Virus record (IMG/VR): IMGVR_UViG_3300021963_004406
Location: 1 to 20,038 of that record
Strand: one strand, 5' to 3'
Origin: a virus
DNA length: 20,038 nt
In this document: piece after piece, positions 17 through 17,797 of the stretch
Layout: each line of letters begins with the position of its first letter
Position numbering within the stretch: position 1 is the first letter of the stretch
The notes under the pieces: generated by a model
Seen by the model: the letters and a program-made list of their open reading frames with translations, nothing else
The model's database searches: none
Told to the model about the DNA's origin: nothing
Translations under genes and position numbers: made by a program

Positions 17-1759
17 TTACTTATTTGCCTTATCGATAAGTCTTTCACTAAATGTTCCTTCATATGTTTTGTGTGCTACTTGTAAAATCACCAAATGCAA
101 TAACGTCAAATAAAACCCTCTCTCGTAAGAATTGGTTGCTTTATGTTTGCGGTTATTGCTAGGAACCAAATTGCCACGCTCTACAATAAAATGATAAAAA
201 TCATCAACCTCCACGACTTCATCGGTCAGTAATCCTAGTATTGATTCAGAAAAATTTTCAGTGGTGAAATTGTAATCACCTTCATTTTGAATCATCTTTT
301 TCCAAAGAGCTAAAAGCTTTCTATAGTCATCGACATCATAAGAATGAGCGTGCACTAAATTCAAGTCTTTTGGATGATAATTGAAATGATAGTAAAACAT
401 CAAATAACTCAACCCCTTAGCAAAGGTGATATTCTCGCCTTCAGCGGTCAACGAATTACAAATGATGTCATATTTGTTTTTAAATTGTTTCTTTGCGATA
501 TCTTCTTGTAAGTCAATAAACAATTTGACGATCTTCTGACACATATCATCTGGTCTAAACATACGAGTACCAGTATCCAAATTACCAGCCGGACATTGAT
601 AACATGCATTCTTATAATCGCAGGTTTGGCATTGTTCTTCTTCTTCAAACATCTTGGCATATTCACGCTGAAAATGTTTATATCGATCGATATAGATTTG
701 ATCGTTGAATACATTTCCTAGAATCGCACCATTACCAGCTGCAGCTTTTTGATTGGTGAAAAAGTAACAGCCAGAAAAATCACCTGATGCATCAATAGCA
801 ATCATGTCTGAACCGATCATACAGTTCTCTTCACCCTTTTGACCAACACCCTCAGAGAAGTGAATCTGCATATCTTGATATTTGCTTAAAACGTCAAGGA
901 TATCTTTATGTAATTTATCCCATTCATCATCTGTCCAACGGATGAATCCTTTACTCGAATCGAGGACTAACGGATGTACAACCATTCTACGGATACCGCG
1001 AACATATAAATGATCTGCAAATTCAGTAAAGTATGGAGCATTTTCTCTTGCAAGGGTGCAACGAATGGTTATACGTTTTTCTTGCTTCGGACCATCTGGA
1101 ATATAGTCGATCATGTCCATCAACTTATCAATCTTATCTTGACCGATCTCACGGTGATCGACTTCAGCGCGATCAGTGTCTAACGATATAAGAATATATG
1201 TGAAGTCATGAGCTAAAAATTCATCAACGAGTTCTTCTGTTAATAATAGTCCGTTTGTGACCATGCCGACTACAGTGTTATTATCTCCACGTGCGTTTTC
1301 CTGTAATTCAGCTTCATTCTTGCGAACAAAATCCAATATAATATCTTTGTGGATAAGAGGTTCTCCACCAAAGAAATTAAAAACTTTGCGTTGTCTGGTA
1401 TTTGAATTTACGAGAAATCTGTATGCAGATAATAAACTATCTGCAGTAAATCTTCCAAAATCTTTATTGTGTTGCTCGTAGCAGTATGAACATGACAGAT
1501 TGCATGCGTTGGTTAGAATCAAATTCATTTGTTTAAGTTCTTGGAAAAGATACTTAACAGAATCTAATTTGACAGTAGTTTCTTGTTCTCTTGGAACGAC
1601 AGAAATAAGCTTATTGGTTTTAGATAACCCCTTTGGGGTTATAATTTGTTCACTTTTAAATTGAAAAGATCCATCATCTAAAACATTAACTGTAGCAGAG
1701 TGTTCACTTTTTCTTTTTGCAAGTTGTTCTTTACTCAACCAAACTATGGGTTGGCTCAT
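17..1759 (-). CDS. Radical SAM/SPASM peptide-maturase-like enzyme (580 aa)
   Basis: Radical SAM enzymes bind a [4Fe-4S] cluster and cleave S-adenosylmethionine to start radical chemistry; those with a SPASM domain often modify ribosomal peptides or proteins. Visible here are the cluster motif CNLSCSYC (C86, C90, C93), the SAM-binding GGEP at 131-134, and a SPASM-type cysteine set: C313, C331, then C377, C380, C386, C389 and C407 in the order CxxCx5CxxC...C. The first 80 residues and the last 170 (about 410-580) lie outside these domains. The C-terminal part looks helical and has a His-rich patch (H458, H462, H470, H472). The ATG at 1759 is preceded by GAGAGA at suitable spacing. It lies 18 bases after the stop of a Cys-rich small protein, the obvious candidate substrate. 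An anaerobic-sulfatase-maturase-like activity on another protein is the alternative; no sulfatase gene is visible. Enzyme class is sure, substrate is inference. Confidence 0.9.
   Translation of the reverse strand: MSQPIVWLSKEQLAKRKSEHSATVNVLDDGSFQFKSEQIITPKGLSKTNKLISVVPREQETTVKLDSVKYLFQELKQMNLILTNACNLSCSYCYEQHNKDFGRFTADSLLSAYRFLVNSNTRQRKVFNFFGGEPLIHKDIILDFVRKNEAELQENARGDNNTVVGMVTNGLLLTEELVDEFLAHDFTYILISLDTDRAEVDHREIGQDKIDKLMDMIDYIPDGPKQEKRITIRCTLARENAPYFTEFADHLYVRGIRRMVVHPLVLDSSKGFIRWTDDEWDKLHKDILDVLSKYQDMQIHFSEGVGQKGEENCMIGSDMIAIDASGDFSGCYFFTNQKAAAGNGAILGNVFNDQIYIDRYKHFQREYAKMFEEEEQCQTCDYKNACYQCPAGNLDTGTRMFRPDDMCQKIVKLFIDLQEDIAKKQFKNKYDIICNSLTAEGENITFAKGLSYLMFYYHFNYHPKDLNLVHAHSYDVDDYRKLLALWKKMIQNEGDYNFTTENFSESILGLLTDEVVEVDDFYHFIVERGNLVPSNNRKHKATNSYERGFYLTLLHLVILQVAHKTYEGTFSERLIDKANK
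1624..1642. repeat. Perfect inverted repeat, 8-bp stem, 3-base loop
   Basis: ATAACCCC and GGGGTTAT flank TTT, forming a perfect 8-bp stem. It lies inside the radical SAM gene, about 120 bases into the coding sequence (around codons 40-46). No run of T follows on the minus strand, so it does not look like an intrinsic terminator. It could act as an mRNA structure or be chance. Confidence 0.5.
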
Positions 1760-1777
1760 AATATATCTCTCAATTCT

Positions 1778-1981
1778 TTATAGTGTTCCTCTACTACAAT
1801 CACACTGGCACTGGCATTCACACACCGTTGTGTAATCATCATAGAATATATGATTGTGTGTAGCCAATGATTCTAATACATCAAGCATTTGCCTATATGT
1901 GTTAGCTGATATCGGCTCAGCCGGCTGAGCTTCAGCAGGAATAGGTAGTCCAGAATTAAATAGACTGGTTTGTTGTGTCAT
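1778..1981 (-). CDS. 67-aa HxH protein with CxCxCxCxC tail; candidate radical-SAM substrate
   Basis: A small protein with a Pro/Ala-rich N-terminus (1-23), a helical segment from I24, an HxH motif (H42, H44) followed by YDDY (47-50), and a C-terminus with five cysteines at every second residue (C54, C56, C58, C60, C62; spacers E, Q, Q, D) before SRGTL. Residues 24-49 match both modules of the 129-residue protein at 4179-4568, including the 18-residue distance from the conserved Ile to the first His. That suggests a tail-region structural protein. The Cys tail sits where that paralogue instead continues with LATYG. The next gene downstream, after 18 bases, is a radical SAM/SPASM enzyme, so this is likely its substrate, RiPP-precursor style. 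Alternatively the HxH and CxC residues may bind metal unaided. The start is well supported by GAGG 7 bases upstream. Function is inferred. Confidence 0.85.
   Translation of the reverse strand: MTQQTSLFNSGLPIPAEAQPAEPISANTYRQMLDVLESLATHNHIFYDDYTTVCECQCQCDCSRGTL
1915..1930. repeat. 16-bp perfect GC-rich palindrome
   Basis: GCTCAGCCGGCTGAGC equals its own reverse complement. It is much richer in GC than its surroundings and encodes part of the Pro/Ala/Glu stretch (about residues 18-22) of the Cys-rich 67-residue protein. Shorter matching arms (GCTGA at 1905-1909, TCAGC at 1932-1936) could extend the structure asymmetrically. As RNA it can fold as a 6-bp stem with a CCGG loop. It may be a regulatory structure, a protein-binding site, or a chance result of the coded amino acids. 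Confidence 0.5.
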
Positions 1982-1983
1982 CT

Positions 1984-2946
1984 TTAAACCTCTTCGTAAT
2001 GTTTAGATACTGTTATATTGTATACCAAACGGTTGCCGCTATTAATAAATGTCCAATCCATGGTATTACCAGTATTCAATCGAAGACTGATATAACCACC
2101 ATGTTGTCCATTTTTAAATCGCGCTTTATATTTATTAGATCCCAAACTGATGATATTTAAATCACTTACAACTTTTATCAATGAACTATCTAAGTTTTCA
2201 TCTAGTGCTTGTCGGAGTGTTCCTAATGCACCAACATCAAACTCAAATTCATCTCCTCGTACTACATACCACTTATCTTCTAATGGATATGCATTTTTAC
2301 TCATCTTTGGTTTTAAGAATTGAGTAGCAAAATCTCCCATATGCTGATCCATATTTCTAAATCTTGCAATATCAGTTTCAAATTCAACATCATCACCTAA
2401 TACAGTTATTGCTGGATTAAACACTATAAGATAGATGGGCGTATCTTTCATCTTATACGCATAAAACCATGTTACTGCGCTGACGCGTTTATTATCATTA
2501 GTCGTTATAAATTCATCTTTTTGAATATCATATATGTGACCTCCCATCCAAGGATTGCGAGTATAGAACACAGTATTTTGAATAATATCTTTATGAGAAC
2601 CGCCGCCATCCATAAATGTACCGAATCCCAAAGATTTCTCTTGATTATTATCAAGCCAATTAATTACAAAGTTAAGATCCACACCCTTTGTAACGGCTCT
2701 GTTGATATCCATTGTTGGTTCAACAAACTGTTTTGTCAATATGAATTCAGATCCTTCTACATGACCGAGATTCTTCTTAAACACAACCTTATTATCTCTT
2801 TTATTGAACTGATATAGATATGATTGTGAATCTTTTGGGTTTATCCAAAATCCTTTGTTATCATAATCAGAGTTCCATGTATTTGCAGCATCCAGCCATG
2901 GGGTACTTTGAGTTTCACCACATTGAAAAAATACTATAGGTTTCAT
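1984..2946 (-). CDS. Uncharacterised 320-aa protein, likely phage structural or accessory
   Basis: I do not recognise this protein. It is rich in Asn, Asp and aromatic residues, with no signal peptide, membrane helix or coiled coil visible. It looks like a mixed or beta-rich globular fold. Notable local motifs are a Gly-rich FGTFMDGGGSHKD and an adjacent NPWMGGHIYD, both near the middle. The chosen start is the ATG at 2946 (MKPIVFFQCGE) because GAGGATATA precedes it; the frame is open a further 16 codons upstream, to 2994, but that extension runs into the divergent aminotransferase gene. The Cys-rich 67-residue gene begins 2 bases after its stop, and its last codons carry that gene's ribosome binding site. 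It therefore belongs to one unit with that gene and the radical SAM gene. It could be a fibre or adhesin, or a partner of the modification system. Confidence 0.75.
   Translation of the reverse strand: MKPIVFFQCGETQSTPWLDAANTWNSDYDNKGFWINPKDSQSYLYQFNKRDNKVVFKKNLGHVEGSEFILTKQFVEPTMDINRAVTKGVDLNFVINWLDNNQEKSLGFGTFMDGGGSHKDIIQNTVFYTRNPWMGGHIYDIQKDEFITTNDNKRVSAVTWFYAYKMKDTPIYLIVFNPAITVLGDDVEFETDIARFRNMDQHMGDFATQFLKPKMSKNAYPLEDKWYVVRGDEFEFDVGALGTLRQALDENLDSSLIKVVSDLNIISLGSNKYKARFKNGQHGGYISLRLNTGNTMDWTFINSGNRLVYNITVSKHYEEV
1989..1992 (-). promoter_or_regulatory. Ribosome binding site embedded in the upstream gene's last codons
   Basis: GAGG, read on the minus strand, lies inside the codons for the final Glu-Val of the 320-residue protein (GAG GTT TAA), which is followed two bases later by the ATG of the Cys-rich protein. 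This fixes the start at 1981 and implies translational coupling. Confidence 0.75.
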
Positions 2947-2955: not shown

Positions 2956-4182
2956 ATGTTTAATTATAACTATGTTCTTCCGTACACAAATCACGCAGAT
3001 CTTGAACCATTAATCATCAGTTCCGCTGAGGACTTCCATTTGATTACGAAGTCTGGTCAGCGGATCCTAGATGCCCAATGCGGCAATATAAACTGCAACC
3101 TGGGTTACTCTCAACATTCAATATCCAATGCTATTTATATGGCATCCAAGTCATTACCGTTCAGTAGACATAATAATGCTATGTTAGCTGAGATTGGTGC
3201 AGAGTATTCTAAGCGTCTTTCATATTATTTCCCCAAACACGAGAAGTTTTTCTTCGGAAGTTCTGGTTCAGACGCAATTGAGACGGCATTACGTTTGTCA
3301 TATATGACACGCTTAAAACAAAAGAGTGATAAGAAAAAGATAGTTACGTTTAAGGGATCATACCACGGATCTACATGGTTGACAGGATCCATTAGTGATT
3401 TAGGAGGTTTAGGACAACACTTGCCCCATTGGCCAGATAATTTAAAGTTGTCATCTCCATTTGGTAATGATGGACAACAAACATTGTACGAGCTTGAGAT
3501 GTTAGACTTGTCAGGAGTTAGTTCCATAGTAATAGAACCATTCACATATTTGTCTGGAGTGTTTGAATGTAGTTATACATTTTGGGAAGAACTTGAAAAG
3601 ATATGTAAACAAAATGATATCCATCTAATATTAGACGAATCTGCATCGAGTTTCTTTAAGACTGGAAATTCATTCTACTACACATCAATCCCAATAGAAC
3701 CAACATTCATAGTGTTATCAAAAAGTATTACTGCAGGTTACATGCCTCTCTCAGCCGTCGCTATCCACAATGATATTTGGAGTATATTACAAGACGAATG
3801 GATTGTACACGGTTGGACAAACAGCGGATCGGTACCTGCATTAGCAGCAGCAAACGAAGCGTTACTGATCTATGAAGAAAATGATTTTAATAATTGTGAT
3901 TTAGTAGAAGATTTTCTATCGTGGCTAGTGAGCGAGCATGACATTACCTCAACTAGACAAGTTGGTAACTTCTTTGCTTTTGATATGAAATCTAGGAAGT
4001 GGCGCCGAGATGTTGGCGTTAGGTTTGCATCAGTTGCACTTAAACATGATCTTCAATTGACGACTTTTAAGTATGATGCTATTGCTAGAGGTTTGATACC
4101 TCTAAATGCTGGTGAAGAATATTTTAATGAATTAAAAGAGAAAGTAAGTCGAGTTGTAAAAGATACGAGTTTACTGCGTTAA
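2956..4182 (+). CDS. Class III PLP-dependent aminotransferase (408 aa)
   Basis: This belongs to the fold-type I, class III aminotransferases (relatives include glutamate-1-semialdehyde aminomutase, BioA and acetylornithine aminotransferase). Numbering from the ATG at 2956, it keeps the phosphate-binding GSSGSDAIE (101-109), the PLP-stacking YHG (136-138), the cofactor-binding Asp in LDES (D227) and the Schiff-base Lys in SKSITAGYMPLSAV (K256), then HGWTNSG (285-291). Length is normal for the family, so the enzyme looks complete. A TTG at 2908 extends the frame by 16 codons, but that sequence overlaps the divergent gene and is poor in family features. The ribosome site is weak: AGG ends 15 bases before the ATG. 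It is the only plus-strand gene here. Its start is 9 bases from the divergent 320-residue gene and its stop shares TTAA with the convergent 129-residue gene. The substrate is unknown. Confidence 0.88.
   Translation: MFNYNYVLPYTNHADLEPLIISSAEDFHLITKSGQRILDAQCGNINCNLGYSQHSISNAIYMASKSLPFSRHNNAMLAEIGAEYSKRLSYYFPKHEKFFFGSSGSDAIETALRLSYMTRLKQKSDKKKIVTFKGSYHGSTWLTGSISDLGGLGQHLPHWPDNLKLSSPFGNDGQQTLYELEMLDLSGVSSIVIEPFTYLSGVFECSYTFWEELEKICKQNDIHLILDESASSFFKTGNSFYYTSIPIEPTFIVLSKSITAGYMPLSAVAIHNDIWSILQDEWIVHGWTNSGSVPALAAANEALLIYEENDFNNCDLVEDFLSWLVSEHDITSTRQVGNFFAFDMKSRKWRRDVGVRFASVALKHDLQLTTFKYDAIARGLIPLNAGEEYFNELKEKVSRVVKDTSLLR
2961..2968 (-). promoter_or_regulatory. Candidate promoter for the 320-aa/Cys-rich/radical SAM unit
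   Basis: TATAATTA on the minus strand matches the T4-type late element TATAAATA at 7 of 8 positions and contains a perfect sigma-70 -10 hexamer, TATAAT. A start about 6-7 bases downstream would give an mRNA beginning close to the GAGGATATA ribosome site of the 320-residue gene. The element lies inside the first codons of the plus-strand aminotransferase. Matches to such AT-only motifs arise often by chance in this sequence. Confidence 0.35.
3132..3139 (-). promoter_or_regulatory. Perfect TATAAATA, candidate late promoter inside the aminotransferase gene
   Basis: An exact match to the T4-type late element, read on the minus strand, lies 186 bases upstream of the 320-residue gene. If used, it would make a leader antisense to the aminotransferase mRNA. 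A handful of exact matches are expected by chance in a window of this composition, so support is only positional. Confidence 0.25.
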
Positions 4183-4568
4183 GCAGTTCTATCAGCAATG
4201 TAATGACTGTGATTTCCAAAGCCTCTGATTGCACCTCTAAGCTCATTGTGTGTTAAAGTAGTTATCTCACCCGCTGATGCGACGGTGGATGGAGGCATAT
4301 ATAACTGTGACAATCCATTTGGTTGGATAGCTCCAGTATTTTTATCTTCATAATAATTGCCACGATCGCCGTTATTACCATATGTAGCTAGTTGATATGC
4401 ATCATCATATGTGTGAAAATGGCCTTGCCAAGCATTGGTTAAGTTAATCAACGAATTAATATCACTAGCATTAATAGTGTTTCCAACTGCAATATTATTT
4501 CTTAATGTAGTTATAGGACTATTATCAGGAAATGAATTTGCTTTGGGGGTGCGTTCTGTTTGTGCCAT
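4179..4568 (-). CDS. 129-aa tail-region protein with two HxH modules
   Basis: No named family is recognised. The protein holds two copies of one module: an Ile, then N and L, then HxH, then Asp. Copy 1 has I32, N38, L40, HFH (50-52) and DD (55-56); copy 2 has I102, N108, L110, HSH (120-122) and D126. The Ile-to-His distance is 18 residues in both. The same module, with the same spacing, occurs in the Cys-rich 67-residue protein at 1778-1981. Between the copies is a Gly/Asn/Tyr-rich stretch. Position among fibre genes suggests a small virion or fibre-tip protein; the paired histidines could bind a metal ion, as HxH motifs do in some tail-spike tips. The start is fixed by GAGG 6 bases upstream. 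Its stop TAA overlaps the stop of the convergent aminotransferase gene. Confidence 0.8.
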   Translation of the reverse strand: MAQTERTPKANSFPDNSPITTLRNNIAVGNTINASDINSLINLTNAWQGHFHTYDDAYQLATYGNNGDRGNYYEDKNTGAIQPNGLSQLYMPPSTVASAGEITTLTHNELRGAIRGFGNHSHYIADRTA

Positions 4569-4569: not shown

Positions 4570-5058
4570 TTAAACCTCTAAAAATTCTTCAATTGTGTTT
4601 TGAATTTCAATGGTATTATCCCACAATTTACTATCCCAACCAGTATTATCTTTAATAGTTGCAAAATATACGATTTTTGTATCTACATTGGATTTAATAA
4701 AAGGCTCAACAAAATACTCTAACCACAATTTAGCAGCATCTTCTTTAGATTCGGCCTCAACTGCTAATGACTTGATAAACTCTACTGTTTCTAAATTAAA
4801 ATCTATACTAATAAAACTATCATATAGATTATCATAGTTCAAGTCTATGACAGTATAGTCTTTATTATAAATTATGCTTTTTTTAGTTTTTCTATAAAGC
4901 GGTAAATAATTATCACCATCTCTATCTACGCTATCAGTAACTAGTAAGCGAACGATCTCTTGTTCTAAAACTGGATTTTCTGAATACTTTATATCAGATA
5001 GTGATGGATGTTGTTTGATAAAATCAAAGAATATTTTTTTGTGTTCATCTTTAGTCAT
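4570..5058 (-). CDS. Hypothetical 162-aa acidic protein
   Basis: I do not recognise this protein. It is rich in Asp, Glu, Lys, Ile and Tyr, with no signal peptide, membrane segment or Cys; it looks like a soluble alpha/beta protein. The ATG at 5058 overlaps the fibre gene's stop as TAATG, a common coupled start; a GTG at 5073 would add five residues, with no better ribosome site. It sits between the fibre-like gene and the HxH protein and runs into the latter with one base between. A fibre chaperone or an accessory virion protein are possibilities from position alone. Confidence 0.75.
   Translation of the reverse strand: MTKDEHKKIFFDFIKQHPSLSDIKYSENPVLEQEIVRLLVTDSVDRDGDNYLPLYRKTKKSIIYNKDYTVIDLNYDNLYDSFISIDFNLETVEFIKSLAVEAESKEDAAKLWLEYFVEPFIKSNVDTKIVYFATIKDNTGWDSKLWDNTIEIQNTIEEFLEV
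4575..4578 (-). promoter_or_regulatory. Ribosome binding site embedded in the upstream gene's last codons
   Basis: GAGG lies in the codons for the last Glu-Val of the 162-residue protein (GAG GTT TAA), one base before the ATG of the HxH protein. The layout is nearly identical to that before the Cys-rich protein at 1981. Confidence 0.75.
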
Positions 5059-6152
5059 TACAATATCACACACTCAACTAATTTTTCTTTGAATTCTTGG
5101 TTTGTTTCAAGAGCTATGCCAACAGGATTTAAGACTCCATAGATTGCTCTGCCATCAACACTAGCGATTACTGTTTGTCCTTTTTGAATTGGACCAATAA
5201 CTCTAACTGGAACTCGACCACGAAGAGCAATCGCTTGACCATCAGCATCTTTATTCATCAAGAATGCTGGCTTCTCAGAGATTACACCAACTGCGATTTG
5301 ACCTGGAGAATAAGAAGCTGTACACTCTGAATCAGTACTCAATGAAACCACCATGACAGTTCCAACTGGATATTCTTTATCGGTTGTATATTTTTCTGCT
5401 AAGTCGGCGTATCTAGCTGATGTTGCAACACCATTAAACACGTTTGCTGTTAAATTGCCTGAACTATCACGCGCTGCGATAGTAGAAGCTGTTGCAGCCG
5501 TAGCGCTGTTCATACCATCTAATAAGTCGGCATCAAGACCAGAACTTGCTCCATCATTACCAGAATGCCATGGAGTATAACCTAACGCAGCGACTACGTT
5601 AGCATTAGTTAGACTAAATTGACCATTCGTTGAATTGTAAGTAATATTACCATTAGTAGCAATACTAATTGCAGATCTTGCACGAGCGTTTGTGAAATAA
5701 AGGTTAGTACTGCCTTCTGCAGTAGCATCTGTAGTAAATGTTATGTTGGCAGAACCATTAAAAGAAGCGCCGTTGATCGTGCGAGCAGTTTGTAATGTTG
5801 TAGCGGTTGATGCATTGCCAGTAACGTTACCTGTTAAGTTACCAGTAACGTTTCCAGTAAGAGGACCGTTAAATTTAGTAGAAGTCATTTCTCCAGTAAC
5901 AGTTAAGTTACCAGCAGCAGTTAGTACAAGTTCGAATGTGTCTGCAGAATCTACGTTTACTTTGAATTCATTACCATCAGTAGAGATAACACCATCAAGA
6001 GGTGCTGCAGATCTTACTTCATTAATCGCTGCAACTACATTCGTTGCATCAGTTAATAATCCAGCCGTGTCTCCTACGAAGTCACCAATCTGATTAGTTT
6101 TTAGTCTCCACCCATTAAAGGTGTCGGTTAGATTTACGTTGATAGCTGCCAT
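5058..6152 (-). CDS. Tail-fibre-like protein with xTGN repeats (364 aa)
   Basis: Phage fibres and appendages recognise the host surface. Several motifs common in such proteins are visible: four tandem (L/V)TGN repeats (98-113), the segment STNLYFTNARARSAIS (148-163), ALGYTPWHSG (189-198), and GLDADLLDG (205-213). The C-terminal part (about 247-364) begins RYADLAEKY and looks like a separate folded domain of the sort ending many marine phage fibres; a trimerising or self-processing role is possible but not shown. The N-terminus (1-50) may attach to the baseplate. Start supported by GAGAGATATAA before the ATG. It follows the giant DUF4815-type protein and a small coiled-coil protein, as expected for peripheral baseplate or fibre parts. 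It is much shorter than long tail fibres, so a short fibre, spike or decoration is more likely. Confidence 0.8.
   Translation of the reverse strand: MAAINVNLTDTFNGWRLKTNQIGDFVGDTAGLLTDATNVVAAINEVRSAAPLDGVISTDGNEFKVNVDSADTFELVLTAAGNLTVTGEMTSTKFNGPLTGNVTGNLTGNVTGNASTATTLQTARTINGASFNGSANITFTTDATAEGSTNLYFTNARARSAISIATNGNITYNSTNGQFSLTNANVVAALGYTPWHSGNDGASSGLDADLLDGMNSATAATASTIAARDSSGNLTANVFNGVATSARYADLAEKYTTDKEYPVGTVMVVSLSTDSECTASYSPGQIAVGVISEKPAFLMNKDADGQAIALRGRVPVRVIGPIQKGQTVIASVDGRAIYGVLNPVGIALETNQEFKEKLVECVIL
5814..5861 (-). repeat. Four 12-base tandem repeats encoding (L/V)TGN
   Basis: Four consecutive imperfect 12-mers encode LTGN, VTGN, LTGN, VTGN in the fibre-like protein. Such repeats make regular beta turns and are prone to copy-number change by slippage or recombination. 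Confidence 0.8.
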
Positions 6153-6162: not shown

Positions 6163-6384
6163 CTATTTTTGAATGTTAGCAAGAATAGTAACTAACATGC
6201 TTTTAATTTCACTTACTTCTTTTTTGATATCGTTGATATCAGTAGTATTCTTTTCAACTTGTTGTTGTGCATTAATTAGTCTTTGTCTATTTTGCAAATA
6301 CTTATTATATGAAATGTCATCTTTATTTATTACAACTTTTGAAACGGGGTCTCGATATAACCCTGTTTCATTTTCTACTTTCAT
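6163..6384 (-). CDS. Small coiled-coil protein (73 aa, start uncertain)
   Basis: The N-terminal part (from ATG 6384: MKVENETGLYRD, then VVINKDD) resembles small proteins encoded among the structural genes of other T4-like phages (from memory). The C-terminal half has heptad-like spacing of Ile, Val and Leu (from about QQQVEKN to the end), suggesting a short multimeric coiled coil. Start choice is difficult. The ATG at 6384 begins the family-like segment but lacks a clear ribosome site. A GTG at 6405 has AAGG about 10 bases upstream. A TTG at 6411 has it too close. The last two starts overlap the end of the 2133-residue gene. Role unknown; position suggests a minor virion component or assembly factor. 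Confidence 0.65.
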   Translation of the reverse strand: MKVENETGLYRDPVSKVVINKDDISYNKYLQNRQRLINAQQQVEKNTTDINDIKKEVSEIKSMLVTILANIQK

Positions 6385-6397
6385 CAAAACTTTTTCA

Positions 6398-9300
6398 CTA
6401 AGCACAGGCAATTACCCTTAGATCTTTAACTCTAGGTACTTGAGCAGAATTACCAGTCTTGAATACTATCTTAACTACGACTGCATCGAATGCAGGTAAG
6501 TTTTCTAATTCATAAGCAACATCAGTAAATGTATTGCGATTAGATGTCTTAATTAAGTTGGCTGTAGGAGTAGCTTTTACAAAGTTAAACTTGGTAATAT
6601 CAGTAGTTGAACCAGCAGGTAATAGCTTGTAATAAACTTCTATGTCTGAACCAGTCACTGCTGGAATGTTAGCTCCAAACATGATCTTCAAGAATGTAGA
6701 AGAATTTGCTAAGTTAACAACGCGTGTAACATATTTAGATTCAGAAGATCCACCTGTTGGAGCGATCTCACTAACATAGTTATCCAATAAGGTAATAGTA
6801 GTAGTGGTTGCAGCTTGAGTTGTGAATGTGTGGTCACAAGTAATAGTAGAACCATCAGAAGCCACAGCTGTCACTAATATTGGATCAGTAGTATTATTCG
6901 TTGAAGATCCAGTTCCGGTTATTTCAATGTACTTACCGACAGCAATACCTGTCGCATCACTTCTTAAGCTACCAGTGTTCGCAATGCTGATAGTACTTCC
7001 TGAGTATGACACGTTATTTCCAGCAGTCGTCAATACTACTTTATAATCTAAATCATCATTATTTTTAGTTGAATATGTGTACGTATCAATCTTATTAGAA
7101 ATTGTTGTCAATGACATGCGTGAAGTATCAATAACTGGAGACAAGTTTTCATTCTCAGATGTTAATCTTGCAGTTACGACTAATGATTTGTTACCAGATA
7201 AAGCTGATAAGTTTTCATTAGTCTGTGAAGCTACGATATTCTTATTGTCAAAATATGTAGTTACGTTAGGTATCAATGAAGTTTCTGCAGAAGCTGCGCT
7301 ATATGATTCATTGATTGGTGTCATACCAAATGCTAATGTGGTCTCTGAGAATACTTGAGACTGCGCGATAAAGTTGACAGCATCGTATCCAACGTTAACT
7401 GTTGCAATTACATTTTCTCCACCAACAAAACCACTGTTAGTAGCATTAGTTCCAACATCGATTACGAATGAATCGATCTCACTATCTACGACCGTGAACG
7501 TTCCATTTAAACCAGTAGATGCTGTAGTAACTATACCGTTATATGTTCCTGCAGCCACGTTAGAGATGATGACTGATGAGTTGTTTGGCATAGCATGATT
7601 TTTAGCAAACACGCGTACTTTGTCTGTCCCGCTCTTAGTTTGGAAGGGATCAGTCTCTAATATGATTGGAGGAAGCGGTTCATTATTGAATTCGATTACA
7701 GGATATTTTGTAATATCGAATACAGCTGAACGAATCGTGAACTTTAGATCCTGTTCTTGGTTTGCTGTCCACGTAGAAGCATTTTGTGATTTAAATAAAA
7801 CACCAGCATAAGGTTGTTCAGATATGAAACGATCTGTATTAATTGCTTTTTCGCCAAGTTGTGCAATCCAAACTCTATATTGATTTGAATCAGATAATAA
7901 TACAATACAGTATTCTGTCAAATCTTGCAAGAATACTGGAGACTCGAACCTAAAAGTAGTAGGTTCAGATCCAATGTTTGGATCAATAGTAACCTTATCT
8001 GGAGTTAATGTAACTCTTGAGAATGGCAACACCCGTTGACCTGGATATCCATTTACAACTTCACGAATTTGAAGAGTTACTGGAATGCCAATATCCTTTG
8101 TTGCAAAGAATACGTCTACACTGGTAATAAATGCACCACCGGTGGATTGTACTAAGAATGTTTGAGCCAATGGATCATACCATCCGCTATCACGAGTTAA
8201 ACGTTCATCTGAATAAACTTCAGTAGTTTGAGATTCAGAAACTTGTTGAGTTGCAACCTCTGCATTTCTAACAGCATTGATAGTTTTTTGTCTAGTCTCA
8301 AGTATACCTTGTGCACGATATTGACCACGACCTTGTGTAGTGAAGTCTAAAGATCCTGTAGTACTATCAGTTAGTTTAAATTCTCTAACACCAGTTCTAA
8401 AACGAATTGAATCAGTATTTGGGATCTTAAATACACCAGCAACTGAACCGTTGAAGTTTGTTATAATATCATCAGCTTCTGTAGCTACTACTACGCTTCC
8501 ATTAACTTCATATTCTGTTCCAGAAATAGAACCTCTTATGATATCTCCATCTTGGAAAGAACCTTTGATGTTCATTATGTAAACAGCTTCAGCGCCAGTA
8601 TCAGTTGTTCTTTCAACCAATACTGCTATACCAGTTCCTGGAGAAACTGCTTGAGTATTATATGTTGTAGCACCGCGTTGTTTAACAAAAACGACATCGC
8701 CTTTATTATATGAAACTTCTGCTTTACCGTCTACTTGTCTAGCAAATTCTTCTGCTGCACCACCAACGTTGGTTTCAGTATTGAATTGATCTGTAGTTCC
8801 AGCAGTAAGTGTTAAATTCACCTTTGTCGCTGGAGTTACAAATAAAGATATATCAGTATCATCAAAGAATGGGAATAGTTTTGTATTTGGTTTTAAACCT
8901 TTACAAACAAAGAGTAAATCGCGGGATCTGATATATGGAATTAGAGCTGACTGCAATACTCTATCTTCGAGTACTTGATAATCGATTCTTGGTGTAACAG
9001 ATGTTTGAATACCAGTACGAGATTGACCAACGGTTGTAGCTTGAGTTTGGAATGTAAGAACGCGAGCACCCGCAGCATCATTACCAAAGCTAGTAGCATC
9101 ACCACCGATAGCTTGCAATTCTGCTTGAGTGAATGTACGACGATCTGACCAACGCGCAGCTCCAAGACCATAATCTCGACTATCGAATCCACGTGTTACA
9201 ACTAAACGATCGATATTTCGTGTTTGACCAACCCAGTTAGTTTCCCATGCACCCCAAACTGTACCTAATGCACCAGTTGCTTCAAGCGCAGTTTGTACAG

Positions 9301-12300
9301 CTGTAAAGTTACCTTCAAGATTATTTACAATATCTGGTCTACGATCAACTTCAAACCATTCGTCTGAAGGAGGATTTAAAGACATACTTCCTAAGAAAGT
9401 AAAGATAGCAAATGGGTTTACATTTTCTGTGCGAGATGCAAACTGTTGTTTAACTAATTCTCTCTCTGTATATGGTAATGTAATGATATCACCGGTTAAT
9501 GCATAACCATCAGCATCACGAGCTATGTCAGATTGATTTGTTTCTAATAAATTAACGTTATCCATTGTATAGAATGGTCGTAACTCTTGTAATGTCATAT
9601 CAATAGCACAACGATAATCTACTGAGCCCGTATCTCCAAGGTCAGAACCTTTAAAGCTATCAACAATGAAACCATTTTTGAAACGATCTAAGCCTAATTC
9701 ATCTTGAATGGTCAATGACTTGGTTTCTTGTTCCAACAGTGATAAAGCTGTGTAGTATTCTAGATTTTCGATGCGCTTATCAAGTTTACCAATATCTCGC
9801 ATGGTATATCGTTTAGTATCGACAGTTTCTATTTGAATAGAACCCTGTGATGGGAATAGCGTGTAAGCTGATATGTGCAACTTAGCAATTAGCATGCCTA
9901 AGTTTGGATCTTTCGGTTCTTCTGGTGATAGGCTTGCTACTCCATCGACGGAGAAGAATGAACCATCTATGTTTAATGCTAATTTGTCTGAACGTGGCAA
10001 GTAATATGAATAACTTGCAGAAGTTTCGAAACCAATTTTAGGAATTTCAGTTTGTGAAGCACCAGTGCCAGAGAATAATACACCAGCATCTCCTATACGA
10101 GGACGGAAATCCATAACGTCAGATAAAGCTACTACACCAGTTGAAGAGATATAGTATGGGATCTTATTGTATGGAACTTCTCCGCTGTAGGAGTTAACTG
10201 TAAAATAGTCACCAGCTGTACCAATACTATGATCAAAATAATCAAATATGACACGAACAGCTCCACTTGGAACTGGATAACCTTCTTTACGCGTGATAGT
10301 AGCAACATCGTAGTGAGTATCGCGTTGACCATTATCAAATGTAAACCAAGATGTGATATCAGTAGTAGTTGCTGGATTTGATGACGCAGCAGTAAAATCT
10401 TCTGCCATTCGTATAGTAACTATTCTATAACCGTCAGCTTTGCCTAATGACAGTGTTAATGGCGTTACAGATGCAAGAGTTGTAAAATCCGCTGTTGCAT
10501 TATCGATTAACGTCTTTTTCTTTTCCTGGGCTGGAGAACCAGCTTTACGAACAGGAGCTAGTAAGCTGTATGCTTTACTTGCTGTTAATCCACTAACTAA
10601 TACATCAACTCCGTTGTTTTGAAGTGTTATACCAGTTGGGGATTCAATTGTACCATCTGTTCTATTAACTAAGATATAGTCTGTAGTGGTTGCCGCAGGA
10701 TTGAATTCAGAACCACTAGTAGTAGGACTTGTTGCAGAACCTACCGAGAATGTCAACGAAGTTTGACCTGCACCAGTTGATGCATCAAAACGTTGCGTTG
10801 TAGTATATGTGGTTGCCTGTTCATTATCACCAGTGCCTCCACGTGTATTTCTAATAAATGAATATGCAAGCGGGAATAATAATGGTAAACCACCAGGTTC
10901 ATTGATCTCAGCACCAACTCTAGAATAAACTGCACCTGATACAGTACCGCTAAATGCTGAATCGATGGTGAGTGTATCATTATCAGTGATTGCTGTAACT
11001 CTACGGAATTCATATGTTGAAGAAGAGTTAATAGTTCTAATGTAATCACCAACTTTTAATTGTGTAGTGAATGCAGTTCCAGAAGAACCTGTGATAGTAG
11101 TAGTTGAAGCAGATATAAAACCTGAAAGGGTGGTATACTTACCATAAACATCGGCTGCAATATTGGTCTTTGTTGTACCGCTATCATAGAAAATTTGTTT
11201 TACATCACGATCGAATGTGTATCCGCTCTCCATCTTAACATCGAAGATGTATGCTTTATAAACACCGGTTGAAGTTCCTGGAGTACCTGAATGGAATTCC
11301 CATCCACGAAGTCTAGCTGTACCAACTTTAGTTCCTGAACCAGCAGTTTGTGGATTAGAACTCGGAGTTAATCGATTATGTAGATCTACTAATGGAAAGG
11401 TTGAACAATCTGGTAATCCTAAAACGTTTGAAACATAAACATAATTACCGTATGATACAGGAATCGCATCATTTGATATACGATCAAATGTTCTGGCTTT
11501 AGGTACTTTCACGTATTCAGTAGCGATCTTTTCGATCTCATAGCCTTGAACGTATGCTTTTCCAGGCTCAATAGCAACTGCTACAGCTGTCTCATCTCCG
11601 CCTTTTTCTGGAGTTAAGTATCCTCTATTAAATGGAGGATTTGTTGTGTAGTTCCAGTCAATGATACCATCATTTAAATTCTGATATGGATCAGTAGCAT
11701 CAAACAGTGTTGACGGTTCAACAGCTCCAGATAAACCGCTCTTAAGAGCTACAAAATAATTACCGCCAGATGTAACTATATCACCAAGCTGATAAGTTGT
11801 ACCTGGTCCACTCCATGCGCCTCTATCGTTGTTACGATGTTCACGAACTGCAACCTTAAATGGGGAAACTGTATAATGACCAGATTCATCAAATGTTCTC
11901 CTAGCTAGTGTCTTAGCTAAGATTGAATAATCTGTCTCTGTAACTCTAGATTGTAATACACCGTCAGTAATTCTAATGAGTTCAATAAATGTGTCGTCGA
12001 GTGTTGAATCGGGAGCTAATTTAGCTAATGTTAAAATAATTTGATAGCGATGTGCACCAGGAGCATTTTGATTTGGAACGCCGTTAGCGTTATCAGCTAG
12101 AGTACTATCATCATTTGAATCAACAATATTTTCATCAACATCTAAACCAATCCTATAACTTGGTGTATTACTATACTTAGAAATTACTAGGGTTTGATCT
12201 GTAACAAGGGTAAACTGACCTTTTACAAAATAGATGCCTTTTTGAATAGATGCGATGGTACCTTTACCAAGAACACCAGTACCAGATTTGATCTGTACAG

Positions 12301-12799
12301 TTCTTTCTACCAATGATGTAGTAGTAGTTGCGTCTGCGACTAATAACTCACCCGCAACGAATGTTTTTGTCTCTTTATCATCGCCTGAAGATGTATATCT
12401 GACAAATAAAGTTATAGCATCTGTTATTAATGGATTGTCTTCGTTGGGTTCTTCAAGAGTTACAGTCGTAACTTTAGCAGTAACTCCAGAAGTTTGACCA
12501 GTTATTGTAGAACCGATCAATTCATTGGCTATCGTGTTAATGTCTATGCCATTGGTCTCATTCTCAATCTTTATGTAAGTTATGTTTGTATCGACAGAAG
12601 ATTGACCAGGAATGACCATCGCACCTTCTTTGAACAAGTGCAAACCTACACGCTCTACTTGAGTTTGTAAGTATGTTTGAAGTTGATTTAACTCTCTTAC
12701 TTGTAAAGAAACAGCAGGTCTAAATAATACGCGAAGGTATCTTTTTGCCTCATCATAATCATCATAATATGGTGCTTGAGAAAAGATCTTTAATGACAT
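6398..12799 (-). CDS. Giant DUF4815-type virion structural protein (2133 aa)
   Basis: The N-terminus has a pattern typical of phage DUF4815 structural proteins: an aromatic start with YYDDYDE, then FRPAVSLQVRELNQLQ (about 27-42) and GLHLFKEGAMVIPGQ (about 52-66). Further along there is a carbohydrate-binding-like module around residues 327-380 (GAWSG, YQLGDIV, NYFVALKSG, ending at a Trp), then a long run of beta-rich and Ser/Thr/Gly-rich segments. The C-terminus ends in a domain with VPRVKDLRVIAC, like the end of homologous marine phage proteins (from memory). It is probably a peripheral baseplate or appendage protein, in the place T4 uses for gp9-gp12. TAAGG before the ATG supports the start. 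TATAATTC overlaps the end of gene 8 upstream but is only 6 of 8 to the late element. The frame is open throughout. Confidence 0.85.
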   Translation of the reverse strand: MSLKIFSQAPYYDDYDEAKRYLRVLFRPAVSLQVRELNQLQTYLQTQVERVGLHLFKEGAMVIPGQSSVDTNITYIKIENETNGIDINTIANELIGSTITGQTSGVTAKVTTVTLEEPNEDNPLITDAITLFVRYTSSGDDKETKTFVAGELLVADATTTTSLVERTVQIKSGTGVLGKGTIASIQKGIYFVKGQFTLVTDQTLVISKYSNTPSYRIGLDVDENIVDSNDDSTLADNANGVPNQNAPGAHRYQIILTLAKLAPDSTLDDTFIELIRITDGVLQSRVTETDYSILAKTLARRTFDESGHYTVSPFKVAVREHRNNDRGAWSGPGTTYQLGDIVTSGGNYFVALKSGLSGAVEPSTLFDATDPYQNLNDGIIDWNYTTNPPFNRGYLTPEKGGDETAVAVAIEPGKAYVQGYEIEKIATEYVKVPKARTFDRISNDAIPVSYGNYVYVSNVLGLPDCSTFPLVDLHNRLTPSSNPQTAGSGTKVGTARLRGWEFHSGTPGTSTGVYKAYIFDVKMESGYTFDRDVKQIFYDSGTTKTNIAADVYGKYTTLSGFISASTTTITGSSGTAFTTQLKVGDYIRTINSSSTYEFRRVTAITDNDTLTIDSAFSGTVSGAVYSRVGAEINEPGGLPLLFPLAYSFIRNTRGGTGDNEQATTYTTTQRFDASTGAGQTSLTFSVGSATSPTTSGSEFNPAATTTDYILVNRTDGTIESPTGITLQNNGVDVLVSGLTASKAYSLLAPVRKAGSPAQEKKKTLIDNATADFTTLASVTPLTLSLGKADGYRIVTIRMAEDFTAASSNPATTTDITSWFTFDNGQRDTHYDVATITRKEGYPVPSGAVRVIFDYFDHSIGTAGDYFTVNSYSGEVPYNKIPYYISSTGVVALSDVMDFRPRIGDAGVLFSGTGASQTEIPKIGFETSASYSYYLPRSDKLALNIDGSFFSVDGVASLSPEEPKDPNLGMLIAKLHISAYTLFPSQGSIQIETVDTKRYTMRDIGKLDKRIENLEYYTALSLLEQETKSLTIQDELGLDRFKNGFIVDSFKGSDLGDTGSVDYRCAIDMTLQELRPFYTMDNVNLLETNQSDIARDADGYALTGDIITLPYTERELVKQQFASRTENVNPFAIFTFLGSMSLNPPSDEWFEVDRRPDIVNNLEGNFTAVQTALEATGALGTVWGAWETNWVGQTRNIDRLVVTRGFDSRDYGLGAARWSDRRTFTQAELQAIGGDATSFGNDAAGARVLTFQTQATTVGQSRTGIQTSVTPRIDYQVLEDRVLQSALIPYIRSRDLLFVCKGLKPNTKLFPFFDDTDISLFVTPATKVNLTLTAGTTDQFNTETNVGGAAEEFARQVDGKAEVSYNKGDVVFVKQRGATTYNTQAVSPGTGIAVLVERTTDTGAEAVYIMNIKGSFQDGDIIRGSISGTEYEVNGSVVVATEADDIITNFNGSVAGVFKIPNTDSIRFRTGVREFKLTDSTTGSLDFTTQGRGQYRAQGILETRQKTINAVRNAEVATQQVSESQTTEVYSDERLTRDSGWYDPLAQTFLVQSTGGAFITSVDVFFATKDIGIPVTLQIREVVNGYPGQRVLPFSRVTLTPDKVTIDPNIGSEPTTFRFESPVFLQDLTEYCIVLLSDSNQYRVWIAQLGEKAINTDRFISEQPYAGVLFKSQNASTWTANQEQDLKFTIRSAVFDITKYPVIEFNNEPLPPIILETDPFQTKSGTDKVRVFAKNHAMPNNSSVIISNVAAGTYNGIVTTASTGLNGTFTVVDSEIDSFVIDVGTNATNSGFVGGENVIATVNVGYDAVNFIAQSQVFSETTLAFGMTPINESYSAASAETSLIPNVTTYFDNKNIVASQTNENLSALSGNKSLVVTARLTSENENLSPVIDTSRMSLTTISNKIDTYTYSTKNNDDLDYKVVLTTAGNNVSYSGSTISIANTGSLRSDATGIAVGKYIEITGTGSSTNNTTDPILVTAVASDGSTITCDHTFTTQAATTTTITLLDNYVSEIAPTGGSSESKYVTRVVNLANSSTFLKIMFGANIPAVTGSDIEVYYKLLPAGSTTDITKFNFVKATPTANLIKTSNRNTFTDVAYELENLPAFDAVVVKIVFKTGNSAQVPRVKDLRVIACA

Positions 12800-12821
12800 A
12801 TTTTAAAAGCCTTAAATTGAA

Positions 12822-14288
12822 TTATAGTTCTAATACTAACTTGATATCTTCTGTTTGATTTATGTTTCTATTTACAGGCGATAAATTTTCAAGATATACT
12901 AATTTGCCAGACATTGGCACATATTCTGGTGCAATTATTGAAGCGATGGTTGCAGTAGCACCACCAATAGTAATAGCTTCGCCCTCTTCAAAACTTGTAA
13001 ATCCAGTCGTCGAGTTTTGATGAAACTTTATTAAATTATCTGTTGTATCTACGCTGTCTACATAACCAATCGCTCCACTAGTATCTCCTATAACTTGTTG
13101 ATCTGCTGTAAGAGTGCCAGACAATCCTGTATATTCAATTGTAGTAAGAGCATTTAATGTTGCTGCAGAAGCCACGCTCGGGCCCGTCCACTTTGCAGAG
13201 TCTACTGCAAATGTTGTATCCGATGTGTGAGCTGTATCACATACGTATGCATAGTTGTTATAATAAACAACATCACCGACAATATATGCTGTACTTGCTG
13301 CCCAATTACCCAACAAACGTACTGCAGTTGCGTCAACCTCATGTGGATTTGCAATTAAACAAATTTGTCTATAATCGTTGTCAACCAAGAAATCTCCAGA
13401 ACCTTCAGCTGCAACAAGGTTAACGTCAATGATAACATAGAAACCGCCTAACTCTGAAACTGGATCTGAACCATGACCTCCCTTTGGAGAGATGATAGCT
13501 CTTGCTGTTGCAGGAGTAGTAGGAGTTCCACCACTAAAACTTACGGTTGCAGTCGTGTATCCACTACCAACTCTTGCTGAGTTCATTATAATTTCTGTAA
13601 CAACTCCACCTGTGAGAGTAACGTCTGCTGCAATCACAGAAGCTCCAATTCCATCACCAGTAATTGTAACCGTTGGTTTAGATGTATATCCAGAACCTCC
13701 GCTTGTTATTTTAATCCTTTGGATAGCTCCAGGAAGAGCAGCTTCTTGAACATCCCATTGAACTGAATCATCATCAGCTTCTAATTTTTTAACTGCAATA
13801 AATGAAGAGGTATTAAACTTAGCAACGTCTGCACCAGATAGTGTGTACATGTATTTCCATTGATAACCGTCTGCTAATACTGATCCCATGGAAGTTGGTG
13901 TACCAGTTGGCTTGATTGAAGAACCTGAAGTTCCTGCTTTAATACACTTATAGACGTTCAACTCGTCAGTCACGACATAATATTGTTTTGTGCTCAAAGC
14001 ACTATCTTGATCATCATACTCTGAATATGTTGAACCAGAAATCCAATTATAACGAGGGATAGCACGAGATATATTTGTAGTAGCTAATTTTTTTAGCGCC
14101 AATAAATTTCTTTGTGCATCAAATTCGGTCGATTGAACATCGGTCGGCGTTGGAGGAGATGATTCAGAAGACCAAGAAAATGCTCGGCCTATACCAAGAT
14201 AGTAAACATCATCGAGTTCTCCAGCTAAACCTTGAACCAAGGTATTAGCGTTTTGATAACGAAATTTAGTAGTAATAATAGCAGACAT
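12822..14288 (-). CDS. 8: Baseplate wedge protein gp8 (488 aa, enlarged)
   Basis: T4 gp8 is a dimeric wedge component. The family match is clear at both ends. The N-terminus has TTKFRYQNA, then YYLGIGRAFSWSS and PPTPTDV, and IPRYNW; T4 gp8 has TSKFRTEK, FGRSEPWSS, PYPTD and IPRRDW. Near the C-terminus are YRQICLIANPHE and KLVYLENLSPV followed by INQTEDIKLVL, matching FRQISIITNPLE and MIYMENRPP...DQTEEINIL. T4 gp8 has 334 residues, so about 150 are added here: a Gly-rich stretch with two SGYT beta-like repeats (about 196-255), a carbohydrate-binding-like module ending in Trp (about 326-367), and a further Thr-rich beta segment before the C-terminus. A perfect late element lies just upstream and AAGGAT precedes the ATG. 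Confidence 0.92.
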   Translation of the reverse strand: MSAIITTKFRYQNANTLVQGLAGELDDVYYLGIGRAFSWSSESSPPTPTDVQSTEFDAQRNLLALKKLATTNISRAIPRYNWISGSTYSEYDDQDSALSTKQYYVVTDELNVYKCIKAGTSGSSIKPTGTPTSMGSVLADGYQWKYMYTLSGADVAKFNTSSFIAVKKLEADDDSVQWDVQEAALPGAIQRIKITSGGSGYTSKPTVTITGDGIGASVIAADVTLTGGVVTEIIMNSARVGSGYTTATVSFSGGTPTTPATARAIISPKGGHGSDPVSELGGFYVIIDVNLVAAEGSGDFLVDNDYRQICLIANPHEVDATAVRLLGNWAASTAYIVGDVVYYNNYAYVCDTAHTSDTTFAVDSAKWTGPSVASAATLNALTTIEYTGLSGTLTADQQVIGDTSGAIGYVDSVDTTDNLIKFHQNSTTGFTSFEEGEAITIGGATATIASIIAPEYVPMSGKLVYLENLSPVNRNINQTEDIKLVLEL

Positions 14289-14318
14289 GGTTTTTAAAAT
14301 CCTTAGGAATATATGGTC

Positions 14319-14326
14319 TATTTATA
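14319..14326 (-). promoter_or_regulatory. T4-type late promoter element TATAAATA before gene 8
   Basis: An exact TATAAATA reads on the minus strand in the 38-base gap between the gp7-position gene and gene 8, directly after the upstream TGA stop. A transcript starting 6-7 bases downstream would have a leader of about 24 bases containing the AAGGAT ribosome site. T4-like late promoters use this element with a phage sigma-like factor and sliding clamp. The intergenic position makes it the best-supported promoter in the window. Confidence 0.7.
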
Positions 14327-15439: not shown

Positions 15440-15442
15440 TTT

Positions 15443-17317: not shown

Positions 17318-17318
17318 G

Positions 17319-17786
17319 TTATCTTGTTCTCTCTAATACAATAGTTGTTGTTGCTACTTGTCCAGTAGTAATTACTTGAAATTCTAGTGTGAGTCTATAT
17401 GCATTCAACCCCTCATCGAATACAGAATCAACTTCAAGGATACGAGCTCTAGGCTCAAAGTTAGCAAGGACTCTACGAACAGCTTCTTCTATACTGTGAA
17501 TCGTAATATCATCTGCTGGTTCAAACAATAGACCTCTAACTCCAGATCCAATTTCTGGTTGAAATGGTCTTTCTTGGAAATTGGTCAATACTAAATTTTG
17601 CACAGACTTTTTAACTGCATCAACGTCGCGGATAGGATTTATATCTCCAGTCACAGGGTTAGGTCTAAAGAGTAGATCTAAGTCTGCATACGTGGATTCT
17701 CTGCCTCCGTATGTTAGCTCTCTCATAGGTTGAGAGTTGGCCGGACGGTTGCCTATTGGTAAGTCTGATAAGTTTTGTGATCGCAT
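17319..17786 (-). CDS. 25: Baseplate wedge protein gp25 (155 aa)
   Basis: gp25 is the small wedge core protein of the GPW/gp25 family, which nucleates the sheath and binds gp6. Family features are AVKKSVQNLVLTNFQERPF (57-75), IGSGVRGLLFEP (79-90) and the signature EPR (111-113) in ANFEPRARI. T4 gp25 has 132 residues; the extra length is an N-terminal extension of about 25 residues. There is no good ribosome binding site: the 11 bases between the previous stop and this ATG read TAAATAGAACC on the minus strand. Translation may depend on coupling to the upstream lysozyme gene. An in-frame alternative is the Met at residue 21, which would remove much of the extension. Confidence 0.95.
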   Translation of the reverse strand: MRSQNLSDLPIGNRPANSQPMRELTYGGRESTYADLDLLFRPNPVTGDINPIRDVDAVKKSVQNLVLTNFQERPFQPEIGSGVRGLLFEPADDITIHSIEEAVRRVLANFEPRARILEVDSVFDEGLNAYRLTLEFQVITTGQVATTTIVLERTR

Positions 17787-17797
17787 GGTTCTATTTA

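Follow-up and report, generated by a model that had tools for sequence, protein, structure and literature searches.

Enzymes that combine a radical SAM core with the cysteines of a SPASM domain are the closest described counterparts of the system considered here. In the CteB/SCIFF and PapB systems such enzymes make cysteine thioether cross-links, and the precursors of PapB are short peptides with CX3D motifs. QhpD, another radical SAM/SPASM enzyme, cross-links the cysteines of a working protein and not of a secreted peptide; its target, QhpC, is a structural subunit of the bacterial quinohemoprotein amine dehydrogenase. The DNA in question is a viral stretch of 20,038 nucleotides, positions 1 to 20,038 of IMG/VR record IMGVR_UViG_3300021963_004406 (the window, taken at its full length). 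It encodes a 580-amino-acid (aa) radical SAM/SPASM protein, rSAM1, next to a 67-aa protein (the CxC protein) that has an N-terminal fibre-type segment with an HxH motif and a C-terminal run of alternating cysteines. rSAM1 shares the radical SAM core and SPASM cysteines with CteB and PapB, but it falls far below the cut-offs of their families, is phage-encoded and belongs to loci with several such enzymes. The proposed substrate differs from the PapB precursors in being of fibre type and carrying a CxC run at its end, and from QhpC in being a putative virion tip and not a bacterial enzyme subunit. From the gene content we propose that phages use enzymes of the type that matures ribosomally synthesized and post-translationally modified peptides (RiPPs) to modify the cysteine-run tips of their own fibres, a reading that we consider probable.

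Radical SAM genes as such are familiar in phages. Campylobacter phages CP220 and CPt10 have 11-12 of them, interpreted as metabolic (PMC2853527), and a T4-like marine genome has 12, interpreted as belonging to Fe-S metabolism (PMC5332604). They have also been noted in vB_CcoM-IBB_35 (PMC3322345) and in alphaproteobacterial phages (PMC10783043), and they form cassettes in pelagimyophages (PMC7029224). In phages RP12 and RP31, a radical SAM protein, an Fe-S oxidoreductase, MoaA and MgoB are placed at ORF76, 77, 79 and 80 under "other genes", and the accessible portion of that paper does not tie this gene row to a CxC protein or to the virion; virion proteomics of RP31, a close relative of RP12, are deposited as PXD006355 (PMC5468394). 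The PHROGs entry phrog_1802, "radical SAM domain-containing protein" in the category other, records neither a function nor a partner. The paper on the isolation of Achromobacter phage JWF, which figures below, does not mention radical enzymes in the sections available (PMC3899368), and a study of RiPPs and phages in the ocean treats the RiPPs of prokaryotes and, to the extent of its accessible text, does not describe virion modification (PMC11118758). In the accessible parts of the open-licence literature we found no link between phage radical SAM enzymes and virion modification, which is not proof of absence.

Both genes of the pair are on the minus strand. The CxC protein is encoded at 1778..1981, with the end of its stop codon at 1778, and after a gap of 18 bases the ATG of rSAM1 at 1759 opens a frame that extends to position 17 (17..1759). 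An earlier sequence-only reading had described a 67-residue protein with five alternating cysteines 18 bases ahead of the enzyme, and the coordinates, sequence and gap all hold. A His-x-His motif at codons 42-44 (1850..1858, minus strand), which also occurs in a neighbouring tail-region protein (HxH-A), is followed by YDDY and by the terminal CECQCQCDC-SRGTL, in which the run occupies codons 54-62 (1796..1822, minus strand). H42, H44, D48, C58, C60, R64 and G65 are invariant in 28 diverse homologues, and all five cysteines are invariant in 19 close ones. Among 40 distinct homologues, the run has five cysteines in 30, four in 4, three in 4 and six in 2. A chance run can be rejected. Cysteine makes up 36 of the 6565 residues of the other window proteins, from which about 3e-8 runs of five alternating cysteines would be expected there if positions are independent, and the statistics of the scan reported below agree. 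The protein belongs to no Pfam, PHROGs or NCBIfam family, is not matched by tblastn in the phage collection at thresholds up to E 10, and as a profile matches no PDB sequence. The kinship to a tail protein that the sequence-only reading saw in its N-terminal part is borne out in part: a profile made from the neighbour with two HxH motifs matches the CxC proteins of 24 of 56 relatives at E 1e-4 or better, while the window's own copy goes unmatched and shows the common HxH and YDD only by eye.

rSAM1 has the CX3CX2C motif (C86, C90 and C93; codons 86-93, 1481..1504, minus strand) in a form invariant across 31 of 31 aligned homologues. Its SPASM segment (codons 313-407, 539..823, minus strand) has seven cysteines, C313, C331, C377, C380, C386, C389 and C407, invariant in 31 homologues. 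Pfam Radical_SAM (PF04055) is matched at E 1e-16, 62 bits against a cut-off of 29.5, and Pfam SPASM, at 313-381, at E 7.5e-4, where 20.2 bits is slightly below the cut-off of 21.5. A radical SAM enzyme with a SPASM cysteine set, as originally claimed, is therefore what the window encodes. The nearest PDB entry by sequence is the thioether maturase CteB (5wgg/5why, E 3.5e-24), and CteB is also the nearest by fold in Foldseek (E 1e-14) with an AlphaFold model of mean predicted local distance difference test (pLDDT) 82.9. At probability 1.00 the Foldseek matches in the PDB are CteB, SkfB, SuiB, anSME and ChlB, with the partial TIM barrel fold. The best curated NCBIfam is PapB (NF047865; E 5e-36, 124.6 bits, below its cut-off of 340); the SCIFF maturases (TIGR03974) give 84.0 bits, below 425, and QhpD gives E 1.2e-21, again below cut-off. 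rSAM1 also matches phrog_1802 over residues 69-435 (E 4.6e-44; PHROGs gives no cut-off). In the phage collection, tblastn with rSAM1 finds only 16 unannotated faecal contigs at 21.8-32.4% identity.

The gene linkage can be read in both directions. Relatives of rSAM1 were fetched as 28 loci and then as a wider set, of which 80 of 105 were kept. Where rSAM1 is 36-99% identical, 54 of 57 viral loci have an HxH-CxC protein, and of 23 loci with distant enzymes (32% identity or less) none has; several of these contigs closely duplicate one another, and the linkage counts thus overstate independence. The three misses are at contig ends (L081 begins 52 bases before the enzyme, L099 ends inside it and L107 ends in the next gene), and the close relatives of all three carry the CxC protein. 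In the reverse direction, a search with a cysteine-free pattern of the small protein returned 44 stretches, 42 of them confirmed against the whole window protein, and by comparison of contig names by eye all 42 are in the enzyme list. rSAM1 is thus linked, as a RiPP maturase gene is, to a dedicated candidate substrate of ribosomal origin. The sequence-only reading would have been in difficulty had homologues of the enzyme regularly lacked a cysteine-rich partner, and they do not. The CxC gene mostly directly precedes rSAM1 and at times lies one or two genes upstream; in L105 it is 4 kb downstream. In L083 and L084 the enzymes are on the opposite strand and convergent, and the CxC gene still adjoins them. 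HxH-A as a control query in viral contigs gave only five loci, too few for a test.

A scan that ignored enzymes gave the linkage in a wider setting. DNA encoding [Asn/Asp]-Cys five times was sought in viral contigs and gave at least 120 loci, which were counted by the same rules in two batches, the first 80 and another 40 that had not previously been read. A run was assigned to the true class if it was terminal (followed by 12 aa or fewer) or stood before an S74-like chaperone, and the rest served as controls; nearby radical SAM genes were detected with profiles built in this analysis. Among the first 80, 69 runs are in frame in an open reading frame (ORF) of 40 aa or more and 11 are not; the 69 divide into 55 C-terminal, four before an S74-like chaperone and 10 internal or other. 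A radical SAM gene accompanies 48/55, 3/4 and 0/10 of these, respectively, and 1/11 of the out-of-frame runs, that is, 51 of 59 terminal or S74 runs vs. 1 of 21 controls. The other 40 repeat the pattern, with 22/30 C-terminal, 1/1 S74, 1/6 internal or other and 0/3 out of frame (pooled, 23/31 vs. 1/9; Fisher p 0.0012). Over all 120 listed loci the counts are 74/90 vs. 2/30 (p 7e-14). The enzyme is on the same strand as the run in all 74 cases, within 5.4 kb of it. Among runs with at least 3 kb of available downstream sequence, 61 of 63 have the enzyme, and the two misses, L259 and L269, are ORFs of 49 and 53 aa that look like chance. Searching whole records with the JWF enzyme recovers nine of the 16 misses (L208, L212, L218, L258, L260, L266, L270, L275 and L296, with L208 weaker at E 3.9e-13), which brings the count to 83/90; the remaining seven are L259, L269 and five whose contigs end within 1.5 kb downstream (L202, L271, L289, L292 and L303). 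All 30 control records were searched whole as well, with matches in L198 and L284 only. In L198 the contig edge truncates a fibre end, and the run of L284 leads into the start of a Hint-like domain, as in JWF; both look like true cases, though they are kept in the control count. The L284 protein is fibre-like (2-850, plus strand), and the enzyme in its record is of the JWF type. When the first-80 fibres are clustered by the stretch before the run, an identity threshold of 90% yields 33 clusters and one of 40% yields 15, and 14 of those 15 have a radical SAM neighbour. The link between a radical SAM gene and a terminal CxC run recurs in unrelated fibres.

These counts bear on the possibility that the radical SAM genes are metabolic cargo serving the host, with the cysteine-run protein an unrelated neighbour. 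Earlier papers interpret phage radical SAM genes that way, and CP220, with its many radical SAM genes, has no terminal CxC run in 150 of its 177.5 kb. Such an arrangement gives no cause for a linkage that is nearly perfect in both directions and spans unrelated fibres, with only 2 of 30 controls showing it, and we hold this reading to be very unlikely indeed. CP220 was considered as a further case of the system and set aside on the same 150 kb; its radical SAM cluster (L314, 20690-29273), accompanied by amidinotransferase and nucleotide-sugar transferase genes and with no CxC fibre, is apparently a different system. SPN3US was also tried and rejected, as no C-terminal CxC fibre was found in the stretch examined, where one 57-aa CxC-ended ORF is chance-like.

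The proteins that carry the run outside the window family are mostly fibre-like in the representatives examined. Seven of the eight CxC carriers searched have tail-family PHROG matches. L220 and L195 give strong hits both to tail-fibre PHROGs and to collagen repeats, and L209 hits families of distal long tail fibres together with Peptidase_S74. The tail-fibre matches of L222, L226 and L189 are weaker and that of L240 is marginal (E 0.009); L208 matches only a family of no assigned function. An isolate example is Achromobacter phage JWF, in whose fibre PJWF_00028 a Hint domain (Pfam residues 308-344) comes straight after the run, NCNCDCNCNCSC. Two genes on, PJWF_00030 is a radical SAM/SPASM protein that matches phrog_1802 at E 2.1e-74. 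In Achromobacter phage 2-1, the run NCNCDCNCSC again precedes a Hint start, and the enzyme is 79.7% identical to that of JWF. This JWF-type version is simpler than the module of the window family, described below. Many JWF-type loci have a gene of about 250-320 aa between fibre and enzyme; whether it belongs to the protein C family of that module was considered and dropped at a profile match probability of 0.2%. In the window and in the carriers, then, the run is found on a gene in a tail or baseplate row or on part of a fibre. From what is known of these domains, a plain C-terminus, removal of S74 and Hint cleavage would each leave the run at a chain end; in some carriers, the position of Hint, S74 or intein-like domains beside or within the run suggests that the protein is processed. 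The intein-like case is L110 (9793-10416, minus strand), where the run is broken by an insert whose first residue is Cys and whose last, ahead of the next Cys, is Asn; it was judged from sequence and has no Pfam match. Inteins tend to occupy functionally central motifs.

A small protein adjoining its enzyme, as in the window family, is also what a free RiPP would look like, made in or released by the infected cell as a signal, toxin or metal carrier and not a part of the virion; a metagenome-assembled genome (MAG) that has the module without recognised phage genes would fit this. The same terminal run occurs elsewhere on long tail-fibre-like proteins, the gene row is one of tail and baseplate, and in some relatives a tail-region protein has the HxH segment too, all of which makes a free peptide quite improbable. 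Two variants of the small-protein arrangement were seen in passing. L245 (2048-2972, plus strand) has three tandem small tip proteins, each CxC-ended, ahead of one radical SAM gene. L192, L201 and L234 encode a Cys-rich protein that contains repeats of the CQxC type and has NCNCDCNCNC at its C-terminus; it appears more like a classical RiPP precursor, and one or two rSAM4-like genes lie in the vicinity.

Downstream of rSAM1, relatives of the window have three further genes, rSAM2 (about 370 aa), rSAM3 (about 355 aa) and rSAM4 (about 440 aa). The module was counted in 59 loci, the 57 viral ones and two MAG contigs; a search of genome contigs yielded two relatives of the CxC protein, both from MAGs. 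All four genes are present in 50 of the 59, and eight of the other nine are interrupted by contig ends. The ninth, L110, has rSAM2 and rSAM1 fused in one 758-aa frame (5037-7313, plus strand) and no rSAM3 or rSAM4 in the stretch examined. Protein C is found by profile in 53/59 and a DUF3050 protein in 32/59 (Pfam E 5e-81 in one case). A B12-rSAM profile matches in 14/59 (L023, L083-L086, L088, L090, L093-L098 and L179), and B12-binding plus Radical_SAM are confirmed by Pfam in L179 only. rSAM2 and rSAM4 carry Pfam Radical_SAM and match phrog_1802. rSAM3 keeps CX3CX2C in 16 of 16 and matches phrog_36229; it has no Pfam match, no tblastn match in the phage collection and only a weak profile match to rSAM2 (78.9%), and we therefore call it radical-SAM-like only. 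Among the 25 families listed for each enzyme, the general SPASM domain model TIGR04085 is above cut-off, for rSAM4 and two JWF-type enzymes. Of the layout of maturase and substrate that the sequence-only reading proposed, what holds is a conserved pair that resembles an enzyme and its substrate and is linked to tail-fibre genes; what has to be revised is that a set (rSAM1-4, often DUF3050, at times a B12-rSAM) and not one enzyme is involved. Locus L104 holds the whole module, and Ralstonia phage RP12 is probably an isolate with the full module. In L098, rSAM1 and rSAM4 are each in two frames (8959-10602 and 13153-14508), from sequencing errors or decay.

It is close to certain that the genes are linked and that the run is placed terminally. 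That radical SAM enzymes modify the run is in our judgment quite likely, because an enzyme of the peptide-maturase type is nearly always present where a terminal run has enough flanking DNA. The sequence of events that we envisage is as follows. A fibre-tip protein would end in an alternating-cysteine run, exposed directly or after loss of a self-cleaving domain, and a phage radical SAM/SPASM enzyme would modify that run before assembly or in its course. For the family of the window, the 67-aa HxH-CxC protein would be the tip, served by rSAM1-4, protein C and often DUF3050. The most likely chemistry would link cysteine sulphur to carbons of the intervening Asn, Gln, Asp, Glu or Ala, or of residues further upstream, for example the conserved aspartates of YDDY, and the product would be a locked, protease-resistant, possibly metal-holding tip. 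We put thioether chemistry forward only tentatively, at somewhat under an even chance. The 150 residues between run cysteines in the 40 homologues are Q 47, N 42, A 28, E 20 and D 13, with no others, so that the CxCxCxCxC run lacks the CX3D/E motifs of PapB precursors. A carbon adjacent to a carbonyl is available in Asn, Gln, Asp and Glu but not in the Ala side chain; Ala positions would therefore be unmodified or otherwise linked. For PapB, Cys-Xn-Asp spacings of n = 0 to 6 are tolerated, in-line as well as nested, according to the accessible part of the report (PMC9413430), and neighbouring or upstream acceptors are therefore chemically reasonable.

The same residues can be read as a metal column. 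The CxC run would extend the HxH metal sites, with inward cysteines of a trimer binding Fe, Zn, Cu or Fe-S in unmodified form, and the radical SAM proteins would help to load iron-sulphur or act on another target. The HxH motifs of the T4 long tail fibre gp37 needle bind iron. T4 gp37 and the CxC protein are alike in having HxH motifs, those of T4 being in the fibre tip; gp37 is not known to have a CxC run or an associated radical SAM gene. HxH stands immediately before the run in the CxC protein, and the polar or Ala residues between the cysteines would fit outward positions of a beta-strand. Unmodified cysteines leave unexplained both the near-constant presence of a peptide-maturase-type radical SAM enzyme and a fold nearest to a thioether maturase, and we regard this column as unlikely. 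A reactive tip is a further alternative, in which the enzyme would oxidise Cys to formylglycine or another carbonyl and the tip would bond covalently to host amines. The JWF enzyme is annotated as an anaerobic sulfatase-maturating enzyme, and anSME is among the fold matches of rSAM1. Substrates of anSME carry a CxPSR motif, which is absent here, one aldehyde needs no row of alternating cysteines, and the anSME family reaches 62 bits against a cut-off of 349. We think a reactive tip highly doubtful.

Several observations weigh against modification of fibre tips. Among the 25 families listed for each enzyme, no maturase family reaches its cut-off. Ala between cysteines means that PapB-like links of Cys to Asp or Glu cannot cover every Cys, no leader cleavage site is evident in the CxC protein, and the need for four enzymes has no explanation in the model. 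The counts are partly non-independent, since near-identical contigs recur among the loci, as the clustering of the first 80 scan loci shows. Finally, there is the copy of the module in a Bdellovibrio MAG contig without recognised phage genes. That contig, NCGL01000045 (L310), has HxH-A, the CxC protein, protein C, rSAM1-4 and DUF3050 at 1971-9326. The enzyme is found in one of 66 genomes of its Bdellovibrio family (E 1e-60), the MAG already known. It is possibly a fibre system domesticated in a predatory bacterium, or a binning error. A second rSAM3-like gene stands at 15840-16970 of the contig, and both it and the module have BamE-like, prepilin-like and lipid-metabolism-like neighbours.

Taken at its broadest, the proposal is that unrelated fibres carry a genetically encoded RiPP tip, which radical SAM/SPASM enzymes cross-link and which a plain end, S74 or Hint exposes; we see the case for this extension and the case against it as evenly balanced. 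The host-contacting point would then be covalently locked and perhaps metal-holding, and a widespread form of viral protein maturation would have gone unrecognised. The modification would presumably serve virion stability or adsorption. If fibre tips are indeed modified, viruses use radical enzymes to build a part of their own particle at the point of host contact, phage radical SAM genes until now seen as metabolic cargo acquire a function, the CxC-ended fibre proteins are explained, and peptide-cross-linking enzymes whose natural substrates are long become available from a new source.

The remainder of the window, read on the minus strand, is a tail row of the myovirus type. The order is endolysin-like protein, gp8-like wedge, a 2133-aa protein, a phrog_473 structural protein, a tail-fibre-like protein, a small protein, HxH-A, protein C, the 67-aa CxC protein and rSAM1. 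The contig ends directly after rSAM1, and for that reason the module downstream of it is missing in the window. The baseplate and tail context genes span 6163..19198 (minus strand) and include phrog_473, phrog_438/Phage-Gp8, phrog_181, the 2133-aa protein and the endolysin-like protein; family searches covered the window proteins apart from ORFs 6398-12799 and 14327-17786. The gp8-like wedge protein (12822-14288, minus strand) is about 31% identical to cyanophage gp8, is matched by 534 records of the phage collection and has a CBM_5_12 carbohydrate-binding segment at residues 328-358 (E 7e-8). The tail-fibre-like protein upstream in the same row (5058..6152, minus strand) matches phrog_22593, for which no function is given, and phrog_19602, a tail fiber protein. 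The small protein that follows (4570..5073, minus strand) has no confident family match. HxH-A (4179..4568, minus strand), a tail-region protein of 129 aa with two HxH motifs, matches phrog_31780, again with no function given.

Protein C, a conserved module gene of about 320 aa, is encoded at 1984..2946 (minus strand), its start being taken at codon 17 of the listed ORF. Its predicted model (pLDDT 89.1) has a C-terminal Ig-like domain at residues 206-322 (Z up to 6.6), a common arrangement. Compared with the PDB it has no whole-chain match, and the Ig-like resemblance is limited to the last domain. Its best BFVD match is an RP12 protein (E 2e-17). A class III aminotransferase gene (2908-4182) separates HxH-A from protein C; it is on the plus strand, whereas the tail genes are on the minus strand. 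A daptide-type role for it was dropped, since it matches many class III families and is present in one of 16 gene rows (L012, by eye). In relatives the same spot can hold other cargo, such as rubrerythrin-like, MaoC-like or desaturase-like genes.

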